Positions 20,911-52,645 of a DNA stretch of 64,000 bases are shown here, piece by piece. The translations under genes were made by a program, and so were the position numbers. The notes under the pieces were generated by a model. The model saw nothing but the letters and a program-made list of their open reading frames with translations, did not search any database and had not been told where the DNA came from. Origin of the DNA: an uncultured Porphyromonadaceae bacterium. GTDB taxonomy: Bacteria > Bacteroidota > Bacteroidia > Bacteroidales > Muribaculaceae. The stretch covers positions 1-64,000 of the forward strand of contig CAMWSM010000004.1 in assembly GCA_947176915.1 (NCBI GenBank), in the 5' to 3' direction. Numbering within the stretch: the first letter of the stretch is position 1; each line of letters starts with the position of its first letter.

Positions 20911-23529
20911 TTACAGAGCGAGCAACTCCATAATTTTATCGATAGCGGCAGAGAGACCATCGATATCCTTGCCTCCTGCTTGAGCAAAGAAGGGTTGTCC
21001 GCCTCCACCTCCCTTGATCAATTTAGCAGCCTGACGAACGATGTTGGAGGCATTTTTACCTGATTTAACAATATCATCAGTAAGCAATAATGTTAAAAGA
21101 GGTTTATTACCGGTATATGTTCCTCCTACAAAAACGGTATGCTCCGGAGAAAGTTTCTTAATTGTAAAAGCCACATTCTTTACTACTTCCGGAAGACGAG
21201 GACCGGAAAGGCGACATACGGACACACCATTTATGTTTTTAGCATTGGCGAGAATTTCGGAAGCAATATTTCTAACTCTTTCCTCCATATAGTCTTCTAC
21301 TTGCTTACGGAGTTCAGAATTTTCTTTGATAGCCTTCTCTACGGCTGCTTTGACATTAGATGCATTGCCAAGGAATGATGACACATCTTTCATGGTGTCT
21401 TGCATATCATCAAGAATCTCTTCTACTCCGGCTGCAGAAACAGCCTCGATTCTTCGTATTCCGGCGGCTATTGAGCTTTCCGATAAGATTCTGATCATAC
21501 CGATATTTCCGGAATTGGCTACGTGAGTGCCTCCACAAAGCTCAACTGAGGTGCCATACTTCACGACTCTAACCTTATCGCCATATTTTTCACCGAAAAG
21601 AGCCATCGCCCCCATTTTGCGTGCCTCTTCAATTGGCATTTCCCGCGCCTCCTCTAATGGCATTGCCTTACGGATGCGAGCATTGACAAGGTGTTCGACT
21701 TTGCGAAGTTCTTCCGGAGTAACTTTCTGAAAATGAGAAAAGTCAAAACGAAGAACTTCAGGAGATACGAAAGAACCCTTTTGTTCCACATGATTTCCTA
21801 AAACTTCGCGAAGTGCTTCATGGATGAGATGAGTTGCGGAATGATTAGCGGAAGTAGCGGCTCTTGAATTTTCGTCAATACGCGCCACAAAGTCGGCAGC
21901 GGGATTGGTTGGCAATTTATGAGTGAGATGCACTCCGATATTATTCTCGCGCTTAGTATCGAATATCTCAATAACCTCACCATCATCAGCTGTCAGAGTT
22001 CCTATGTCGCCCACCTGACCACCCATTTCAGCGTAGAAAGGAGTCTCCGAGAGAATTATTTGATAAAATTCTTTTCCCTTTTGCTTGACTTTACGATAAC
22101 GGAGAATGTTTGTGTTAGATTCAGTCTTATCGTAACCTACGAATTTCTGATCACCGTTGTTTATGATAGTCCAGTCTCCGGTTTCAACAGCAGCAGCGTT
22201 GCGGGCACGCTCTTTCTGTTTGGTCATTTCTGTGTCAAACTCTTCCTGATTAAGAGTCATCCCGTTTTCTCGCAGGATAAGTTCGGTGAGATCAAGGGGA
22301 AAGCCGTATGTGTCGTACAATGTAAATGCGTCTTTACCGGAAATAACAGATTTTCCCTCTTTTTTTGCTTTTTCAATCAAGGAATCCAAGAGCTTAATGC
22401 CATTATCAAGAGTGCGTAGGAAAGATTCCTCTTCCTCTTTTATCACTTTTTTAATCAAGTCTTTTTGCGCTCTCAATTCAGGATATGAGTCTCCCATTTG
22501 CTCTACGAGTTTATCCACAAGCTTATATAAGAAGGCATCTTTTCGATTGAGGAATGTATAGGCGTATCTTACAGCACGACGTAAAATACGACGAATTACA
22601 TATCCGGCTTTGGCATTGGAAGGTAATTGAGAATCCGCAATTGAGAATGCGATAGTGCGCAAGTGGTCGGCTACCACACGCATTGCCACATCTACTTTTT
22701 CATCTTCACCATATTTCAGGCCTGTTATATCAGAAATTACCTCAATAATTGGAGTGAAAACGTCAGTGTCATAATTTGATTTTTTGCCCTGAAGTGCCAT
22801 ACAAAGACGTTCGAATCCCATGCCGGTGTCAATAACCTTTGCGGGGAGTGGTTCGAGGGAACCATCAGCCTTACGATTGTACTGCATGAAGACGAGGTTC
22901 CAAATCTCAATTACTTGAGGATTATCTTTATTTACAAGGGAAGCTCCGTCGACAGCAGCTCTTTCTTCATCCGAACGAAGATCGATATGAATTTCGCTAC
23001 AAGGCCCGCATGGACCCGTATCACCCATTTCCCAGAAGTTATCGTGACGGTTTCCATTAATGATGTGAGAGGAGGGCAGATGCTTCTCCCAATATCCGGC
23101 AGCTTCATTATCTCTTTCAAGACCTTCCGGTGCGTATCCTTCAAAAACGGTGGCGTATAGTCGGTCAGGATTTAGTTTCAGGACGTCGACAAGATATTCC
23201 CAAGCCCAATCGATAGCTTCTTTTTTAAAATAATCACCAAACGACCAGTTGCCAAGCATTTCGAACATGGTGTGATGGTAAGTATCATGTCCTACCTCTT
23301 CGAGATCGTTATGCTTTCCTGAAACACGCAAACATTTTTGGCTGTCCGCCACTCTTTTGTGGGTGGCAGGTCGGTTGCCAAGAATAATGTCTTTAAACTG
23401 ATTCATGCCGGCATTGGTAAACATAAGTGTCGGGTCGTCTTTGATTACCATGGGCGCGGAAGGAACAATCTGATGTCCTCTTTCACGAAAGAAATTCTTA
23501 AAAGATTCTCTGATTTCGTTTGATGTCAT
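20911..23529 (-). CDS. alaS: Alanyl-tRNA synthetase
   Basis: [59 protein letters not shown]. Confidence 0.98.
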
Positions 23530-23590: not shown

Positions 23591-23626
23591 TTTGCAAAAT
23601 TAAGGGAATTCCCTTAATTTTGCAAA
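23591..23626. promoter_or_regulatory. Perfect 36-nt palindrome encoding overlapping divergent promoters for alaS (-) and the M23 gene (+)
   Basis: tttgcaaaattaagggaattcccttaattttgcaaa; TTTG-N20-TAATTTTG reads identically on both strands. Confidence 0.75.
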
Positions 23627-23726: not shown

Positions 23727-24698
23727 ATGGCAAAAGAGATTCTTTACAAGTATAATCCCGAAACGGATAATTTTGAGCGAGTCTATAAAACGGTTGGCTC
23801 AAGGATAACTTTATGGGCAAAAATAGGGGGACTCTCTTTTTTTTTCGGTATCATTATATTTCTCCTTGTATTTTATTGTTTTGATTCCCCTACGGAAGAA
23901 AATCTTAGAGAGGAGAATCGTGAATTAAGGACACAATATAAGATATTGAACAGAAGAATAGAGAATTCCCAAAAAGTGTTGGAAAGGCTTATTGAACGCG
24001 ATGATAATTTCTATCGCGTTATGATGCAGATGGAGCCTATGAGCCAATCTCAACGTCTGGCCGGACTTGAAAAGGAGACACGTTACAGTGGGGGTGTTGA
24101 CAAATTGAATGATGCTGCGCTTGTCAGTGAACTTGATCGTAGAATGAATCTTATGGAGAAGCAGATCTTTTCACAAGTTCAGAGTTATGAGCAGCTAAGG
24201 GAGAGAATGGGGAAGGAGAGGGAAAAAATGAGCCATATCCCCTCAATTATGCCAATCAACCCTTCATCTTTTTCTCTTGCTTCAGGCTATGGATACAGGC
24301 GGGATCCTATCTCGGGACATTCCAAATATCATGAAGGAATTGACATCGCGGCGTCAACAGGAACTCCCGTTATTTCCACAGGAGATGGTATTGTTGAATT
24401 GGCAGAAAGAAAAGCGGGTGCAGGTAATTGTATAGAAATTAATCATGATTATAATTATAAGTCGACATATTCCCACCTTTCAGAAATATTAGTGGCACCG
24501 GGACAGGTAATCAAGAGAGGACAAATTATCGGAAAGGTTGGAAGTTCGGGCGTGTCTACCGGTCCGCATCTTCATTATGAAGTTAGATTTAAGGGAGAAG
24601 CCCAGAATCCTGTAAACTATTTTTTTAAGGATTTAGGTCCTAAGGAATTTGCAGAGATGATGCAGAAGGCGGACAATGCCGGCCATCTAATGGATTAA
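23727..24698 (+). CDS. M23 family metallopeptidase (membrane-anchored, coiled coil)
   Basis: GYGYRRDPISGHSKYHEGIDIAASTGTPV, YSHLSEILVAPGQVIKRGQIIGKVGSSGVSTGPHLHYEV. Confidence 0.95.
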   Translation: MAKEILYKYNPETDNFERVYKTVGSRITLWAKIGGLSFFFGIIIFLLVFYCFDSPTEENLREENRELRTQYKILNRRIENSQKVLERLIERDDNFYRVMMQMEPMSQSQRLAGLEKETRYSGGVDKLNDAALVSELDRRMNLMEKQIFSQVQSYEQLRERMGKEREKMSHIPSIMPINPSSFSLASGYGYRRDPISGHSKYHEGIDIAASTGTPVISTGDGIVELAERKAGAGNCIEINHDYNYKSTYSHLSEILVAPGQVIKRGQIIGKVGSSGVSTGPHLHYEVRFKGEAQNPVNYFFKDLGPKEFAEMMQKADNAGHLMD

Positions 24699-24723: not shown

Positions 24724-25059
24724 ATGCACGATTTAACAAAAAAATATTACAAAATCAGTGAGGTTTCAGAAATTCTCGGCATACCGACATCTACCATAAG
24801 ATTTTGGGAAAATGAATTTCCGGAGGTTAGTCCTATGAGAAGTATCGGAAATCAGCGATATTATACACCTGAAGATATAGAGGCATTGAAAATAATTTAT
24901 TTTCTTCTCAAAATTAAAGGTCTAAAAGTTGAGGCAGCCAAGGAGCAGATGCGACTTAACCGCACCAACATTTCAAAGAAAGCGGAAATAGTAGAGCGGC
25001 TGCAGGATGTAAGAGATGAACTCTCCATGATGCTGAAAGCTTTGGAGAAAAGGAAATAA
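24724..25059 (+). CDS. MerR family transcriptional regulator
   Basis: YYKISEVSEILGIPTSTIRFWENEFPEVSPMRSIGNQRYYTPEDIEALK. Confidence 0.92.
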   Translation: MHDLTKKYYKISEVSEILGIPTSTIRFWENEFPEVSPMRSIGNQRYYTPEDIEALKIIYFLLKIKGLKVEAAKEQMRLNRTNISKKAEIVERLQDVRDELSMMLKALEKRK

Positions 25060-51993: not shown

Positions 51994-52572
51994 ATGACAT
52001 TTGATTTAATTCGTGAAATACTCGGTTTCGTTATTGGTTTGTTATATCTTTGGTGGGAGTATCATGCTAATCCCAAAGTGTGGTTGGCTGCCTTGGTGAT
52101 GCCGGCAATCTCAATGTGGATTTATTATTCTAAAGGATTATATGCAGATTTTGCCATCAATATTTATTATCTTTTGATAGCCGTATATGGTTTTATCGTT
52201 TGGACCCGGGGCGGAGAAAAAAAAAATAAGACAAAGAAGAGGATCACGCGGATCACGATGGCACAGTTGGCAGGATGCTCTTTAGTAAGCGTAGCATTAT
52301 GGGTATTAATATGGTGGATACTTATAACTTTTACCGATTCGACTGTTCCTGTAGCAGATGCTTTTACAACGGCATTATCCATTGTTGGTCTGTGGATGAT
52401 GGCTCAAAAAATCGCAGAGCAGTGGCTCGTATGGCTGGTTGTTGACATTGTATGTACCGGACTATATTTTTACAAAGACATACCTTTTTACGCAATCTTG
52501 TATTTTATTTACTCCGTAATATCGGTGGTAGGCTATAGGAAGTGGCTGCAGATTATGAAAGGCGCAGATTAA
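51994..52572 (+). CDS. pnuT: PnuC-family transporter, probably thiamine (PnuT)
   Basis: LYLWWEYHANPKVWLAALVMPAISMWIYYSKGLYADFAINIYYLLIAVYGFIVW; co-operonic with riboswitch-controlled receptor. Confidence 0.88.
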   Translation: MTFDLIREILGFVIGLLYLWWEYHANPKVWLAALVMPAISMWIYYSKGLYADFAINIYYLLIAVYGFIVWTRGGEKKNKTKKRITRITMAQLAGCSLVSVALWVLIWWILITFTDSTVPVADAFTTALSIVGLWMMAQKIAEQWLVWLVVDIVCTGLYFYKDIPFYAILYFIYSVISVVGYRKWLQIMKGAD

Positions 52573-52581
52573 ATGTAGTAA

Positions 52582-52645
52582 AATTTCTCCAAATAAAAAT
52601 CGGGATTCCCTTCGAAGGGAATCCCGATTTTTATTTGGAGAAATT
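52582..52645. terminator. 64-nt perfect palindrome, bidirectional terminator between pnuT and MFS gene
   Basis: aatttctccaaataaaaatcgggattcccttc|gaagggaatcccgatttttatttggagaaatt (32-bp arms). Confidence 0.9.

Follow-up and report, generated by a model that had tools for sequence, protein, structure and literature searches.

A perfect 36-nt palindrome lies between alaS (start at 23529, − strand) and a divergently oriented M23 peptidase gene (start at 23727, + strand) in the window, the whole 64,000-nucleotide stretch of Muribaculaceae DNA analysed here. We conclude, with a probability of roughly 85%, that the element combines two complete, interlocking promoters of the sigma-ABfr type into a bidirectional promoter, that the symmetry of its 12-bp core is mostly incidental, and that the 12-bp spacing belongs to a helical series. 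RNA polymerase would load in one orientation at a time and transcribe either alaS or the M23-merR operon, from starts predicted to lie about 36-40 bp apart, just outside the palindrome or at its edge.

A palindrome composed of two opposed promoter motifs

Direct inspection of window positions 23591-23626, which read TTTGCAAAATTAAGGGAATTCCCTTAATTTTGCAAA, bears out the description of the site in an earlier note made from the sequence, including its coordinates: the 36 nt are identical to their own reverse complement. Both strands read TTTG-N20-TAATTTTG, as that note had said, and its comparison with a Bacteroides -33/-7 pattern can be made more definite, since TAnnTTTG with TTTG about 20 bp upstream matches, exactly and on both strands, the consensus of the Bacteroides primary sigma factor, sigma-ABfr (TTTG at -33 and TAnnTTTG at -7), as cited in PMC7366714. 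In B. thetaiotaomicron this motif, supported by dRNA-seq, precedes 81% of the primary start sites (PMC7366714). The boxes, their order and their gap are the same as in the sigma-ABfr promoters described there; the difference is that here two copies are superimposed in opposite directions. The -33 TTTG of one promoter directly adjoins the -7 box of the opposite promoter (CAAAnnTA on that strand), which is why each end of the palindrome reads TTTGCAAA; both -33/-7 gaps are 20 bp. The core had been called 12 bp, and this length is right for the true 12-mer between the boxes, AGGGAATTCCCT, while the sequence then given, taagggaattccctta, runs to 16 nt, taking in the TA of both -7 boxes. The features are collected in Table 1.

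Table 1 Features of the alaS/M23 region (window coordinates)
Feature	Position	Strand	Basis or remark
Perfect 36-nt palindrome, putatively two interlocked divergent promoters	23591..23626	.	sequence, genome pattern search
-33 box TTTG, predicted M23-direction promoter	23591..23594	+	20 nt upstream of -7 box; TG precedes CAAA in 95-97% of N12 homologs
-7 box TAATTTTG, predicted alaS-direction promoter	23595..23602	-	sequence, homolog conservation
Core AGGGAATTCCCT, 12 nt between the -7 boxes	23603..23614	.	symmetry lost in homologs except L002
-7 box TAATTTTG, predicted M23-direction promoter	23615..23622	+	sequence, homolog conservation
-33 box TTTG, predicted alaS-direction promoter	23623..23626	-	CAA after TTTG in 91-97% of N12 homologs
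alaS, alanyl-tRNA synthetase	20911..23529	-	Pfam tRNA-synt_2c, tRNA_SAD, DHHA1; predicted 5' UTR ~60 nt
M23 family metallopeptidase	23727..24698	+	Peptidase_M23; predicted 5' UTR ~100 nt
MerR-type small HTH protein gene	24724..25059	+	25-nt gap after M23 gene; neighbour conserved

Genome-wide counts in this study come from pattern searches and the sites that they listed. With up to three mismatches tolerated, the palindrome was found as a single copy in the 2.99-Mb genome. Under independent base composition about 2e-6 perfect 36-mer palindromes are expected per 64 kb, a figure that overstates the surprise, both because 12 of the 18 pairs are set by the two copies of one promoter motif and because other long perfect palindromes (38-64 nt) are present in 487 kb of the genome. 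More perfect palindromes of opposed boxes were seen at G027:C54:19340-19369 and G003:C11:47184-47223, with cores of 12 bp and 22 bp, respectively. Elsewhere in the window, two convergent genes, which end at 52572 and 52651, flank a perfect 64-nt palindrome (52582-52645); this is presumably a bidirectional terminator, and a perfect 64-mer is unusual.

It is very improbable that the 36-nt inverted repeat is itself a terminator or a structured RNA element forming a hairpin in a transcript, although it is a perfect repeat with a predicted fold of -15.8 kcal/mol as single-stranded DNA and is flagged on the − strand by a terminator scan. The site lies between two divergent start codons, where there is no upstream transcript to end, whereas an intrinsic terminator has its hairpin and following T-run where a transcription unit finishes (3' end). 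Moreover, the stem is already lost in homologs that keep the boxes, and the repeat has no match in Rfam. We rejected this explanation on the basis of the position between divergent starts, the unconserved stem and the Rfam result.

Conservation of the boxes and their spacing across Bacteroidales

Intergenic regions between alaS and M23 genes were taken from relatives of the same genus and the same family and from many Bacteroidales families (Muribaculaceae and others), and were searched for CAAAnnTA-N-TAnnTTTG with N of 0-30 allowed. The double box was found in 83 of the 108 distinct divergently adjacent pairs, with N = 12 in 67, N = 11 in 14, and one pair each with N = 10 and N = 6; the strict pattern was missing from 25 pairs, some of which had degenerate boxes and some separated promoters. 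In sixteen further Bacteroidales families the boxes were present with N = 10-13 in 13 and absent from three. Among the homologs having both outward -7 boxes, N was 10-13 in 95/96 and 11-12 in 92/96. Since the intergenic length varied from 69 to 599 nt and the flanks were largely unalignable, such a constant box spacing implies selection. Outside the -7 boxes, the TG and CAA of the -33 boxes were the sole strongly conserved positions in the N12 homologs. In more distant families, where N is 11, the TTTG on the M23 side was retained and that on the alaS side was weaker.

These comparisons indicate that the promoter arms and their spacing are under selection. The claim that alaS and the M23 gene are served by two fully overlapping divergent -33/-7 promoters thus gains from both the exact consensus match and the conservation of arms and spacing across Bacteroidales, and two completely overlapping divergent promoters of the sigma-ABfr type are well supported by sequence comparison.

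The MerR-type gene probably shares an operon with the M23 gene, from which it is separated by a 25-nt gap. A MerR-type homolog was found in 95 of the 106 related loci examined, accompanying the M23 gene opposite alaS across Bacteroidales. In the relatives L004, L008, L013 and L015, alaS was not found beside the M23 gene in the stretches examined; the M23 side of L004 still has TAATTTTGC just upstream.

Symmetry of the core

The earlier note had named retention of the boxes together with loss of the symmetry in homologs as the outcome that would speak against a role of the core symmetry, and this is what the alaS upstream regions of Bacteroidales show. Averaged over 62 distinct N12 cores, 1.85 of 6 pairs were mirrored, compared with 2.28 (sd 0.14) when the halves were re-dealt, and N12 sites genome-wide showed no covariation within the core. 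In general, then, the core symmetry is not under selection. In the interlocked arrangement, the core would be a spacer whose A/T patch matters and whose symmetry is mostly incidental.

One relative, L002, does not fit easily with a pure spacer. Its 36-mer is identical to that of the window, even though the two loci are saturated at 4-fold sites (35% identical in alaS and 33% in the M23 gene), and of the 918 pairs whose M23 identity is below 75%, no other has a 12/12 core match. L003, which is about as distant as L002, does not have the identical core. Two possible reasons can be considered for this one pair: either a function of the core arose in this lineage, or the core was kept with the help of palindrome correction.

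As for the exactness of the symmetry only, we give an even chance to the idea that a quasi-palindrome of two promoters was made perfect by chance or by hairpin-templated replication correction, leaving a core symmetry that has no function, and such an origin is compatible with the explanation by interlocked promoters. Perfect cores were indeed observed twice among the homologs against 0.28 expected by shuffling (p ~0.03), the genome has further perfect long palindromes, and templated correction would leave only six bases of the L002 match to be explained. These six matches at neutral saturation are, however, still demanded by the identity of the L002 core, which weighs against this origin.

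The earlier note had also considered the core as an operator. In its fuller form, the palindrome, notably the core AAGGGAATTCCCTT, would be the binding site of a dimeric regulator acting on both genes, for which the product of the downstream MerR-type gene is a candidate. A conserved MerR-type gene directly downstream of the M23 gene and the known location of MerR-family operators between -35 and -10 (PMC12825309) are in its favor, as is the L002 core, kept identical at saturated divergence. Symmetry of the core was nevertheless below the shuffle mean in the distinct cores and, among the orthologs, was kept only in L002; no second copy of the 18-mer, with two mismatches allowed, was found in 487 kb out of the 2.99 Mb of the genome; and the 20-bp gap is ordinary, whereas MerR promoters typically have a lengthened gap. 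In addition, the recognition region of the MerR-type protein is nearly constant while the core changes completely, and therefore the core is not a conserved site of this protein. Since the core symmetry is lost in homologs whose boxes are kept, we consider an operator unlikely and, on the symmetry and the MerR comparison, rejected it as a general explanation; with L002 as the exception, a lineage-specific operator is a possibility. The element resembles spacer operators of the MerR family, e.g. PsoxS/soxR (PMC12825309), in having a dyad in the -35/-10 gap near a MerR-type gene and divergent transcription, but differs in its normal gap, its unconserved dyad and a constant HTH beside a changing core, and shows no sign of regulation.

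Relation to known bidirectional promoters

The bidirectional promoters described in E. coli and other prokaryotes are pseudo-symmetric DNA on which polymerase binds in either of two mutually exclusive orientations (PMC12825309, PMC10268837), and the interlocked promoters at alaS are alike in this respect. The described promoters have a shared or overlapping -10 element and starts 7-25 bp apart, most often 18 (PMC10268837, PMC12825309), and make mostly mRNAs (PMC12825309, PMC10268837). In contrast, the -7 boxes at alaS are separate, lying 12 bp apart, and each is interlocked with the opposite -33 box, with the predicted starts ~36-40 bp from each other, so that the element falls outside the definition of Warman et al. 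(divergent starts 7-25 bp apart and a shared -10). Neither PMC12825309 nor PMC10268837 was found to describe spacings in a helical series. By analogy, the alaS element may work on the same principle as the known bidirectional promoters, with a new geometry. In 58 genomes, the overlapping form with a shared box, CAAAnnTAnnTTTG, which comes closest to the shared -10 promoters of E. coli, was at most slightly more frequent than the reversed control, and E. coli-type sigma-70 promoters were not found above chance.

The two -33 to -7 intervals overlap completely, from which we infer that simultaneous binding of two polymerases would be impossible, in line with the work in E. coli. In five bidirectional promoters tested in E. 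coli, basal firing was too rare for competition (PMC12825309). A -7 mutation on one strand therefore need not raise the opposite promoter, and the proposed coupling of alaS to the peptidase would be likely to appear only where transcription in one direction is driven strongly. Kept in dozens of Bacteroidales families, the alaS / M23-merR pair would be a conserved case in which to test promoter competition in bacteria other than proteobacteria.

Opposed boxes at helical spacings

The opposed arrangement is not confined to alaS and recurs at loci unrelated to it. GCAAAnnTA-N-TAnnTTTGC with N of 2-22 was present in 59/59 genomes of the family (12 in the window's genome), compared with 0-2 per genome for the reversed control. 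Among the matches listed, the spacings cluster sharply at N = 12 and 22, and longer spacers lie at about 33, 43 and 53. For N from 12 to 56, the spacing of outward -7 boxes showed a period of 10.5 bp in the window's family (R = 0.60, n = 134 pooled, among the matches listed), and a separate set of six genomes replicated it at the same phase (R = 0.57, n = 75, again among the matches listed). In other Bacteroidales families the phase was the same and the periodicity weaker (R = 0.41, n = 61, likewise among the matches listed). The spacings were read by hand from the listed matches, and the histogram counts a few repeated elements more than once. Sites lay between divergent genes in 16/27 cases for N11-14 and 16/23 for N20-24, compared with 1/10 for other spacings, orientations being called with a simple ORF caller. 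The TT of the -33 box was present at 26% of N12 sites genome-wide, only slightly above the generic rate of 16%; interlocked -33 boxes are thus strong at alaS without being required of the class.

The 12-bp spacing at alaS would therefore be one member of the series 12, 22, 33, 43 and 53. We tentatively suggest, at a little under even odds, that opposed -7 boxes at N = 12 + ~10.5k bp are a class of bidirectional promoter that Bacteroidales have of their own, in which the two promoters lie on one helix face and share phased A/T patches, and in which competition or coupling is general and encoded in the geometry. The spacing rule itself places divergent promoters of these gut bacteria whole helical turns apart, with the period also seen in the A/T patches of ordinary promoters. 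The literature searched, mostly papers available without subscription, yielded no description of divergent promoters being helically phased.

A/T periodicity of ordinary promoters

Ordinary promoters were sampled as 158 intergenic -7 boxes from 864 kb, comprising stretches of two related genomes (L329-L368) and the window. Upstream of these boxes, A/T-rich patches recur about every 10.5 bp out to about -60. The periodicity persists, also beyond the -33 box, in the 122 boxes that have no opposing box within 100 nt, where 0/1000 jittered controls were as strong. Convergent and same-strand pairs, the controls for periodicity, were few in the 864 kb. An opposing -7 box, which is itself A/T rich, coincides with the patches at N = 12, 22, 33, 43 and 53. 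The phased A/T patches of ordinary promoters are thus likely to be the cause of the helical spacing: each promoter would use phased A/T DNA, as a bend or a polymerase contact, and the opposing -7 box would have to land on a patch.

Periodic A-tracts are known from prokaryotic genomes generally (PMC3940949); the literature searched gave no instance of their being anchored to this promoter or to divergent pairs. The pattern suggests that, beyond the -33/-7 boxes, phased A/T DNA is also read by the polymerase of Bacteroidota; existing start-site maps would allow a direct test of this, and it could aid the design of Bacteroides promoters. In the same 158 boxes, TTTG is enriched at -24 to -20, counted from the TA of that box; generic promoters of the related genomes thus carry TTTG at the same offset from the -7 box as the palindrome does.
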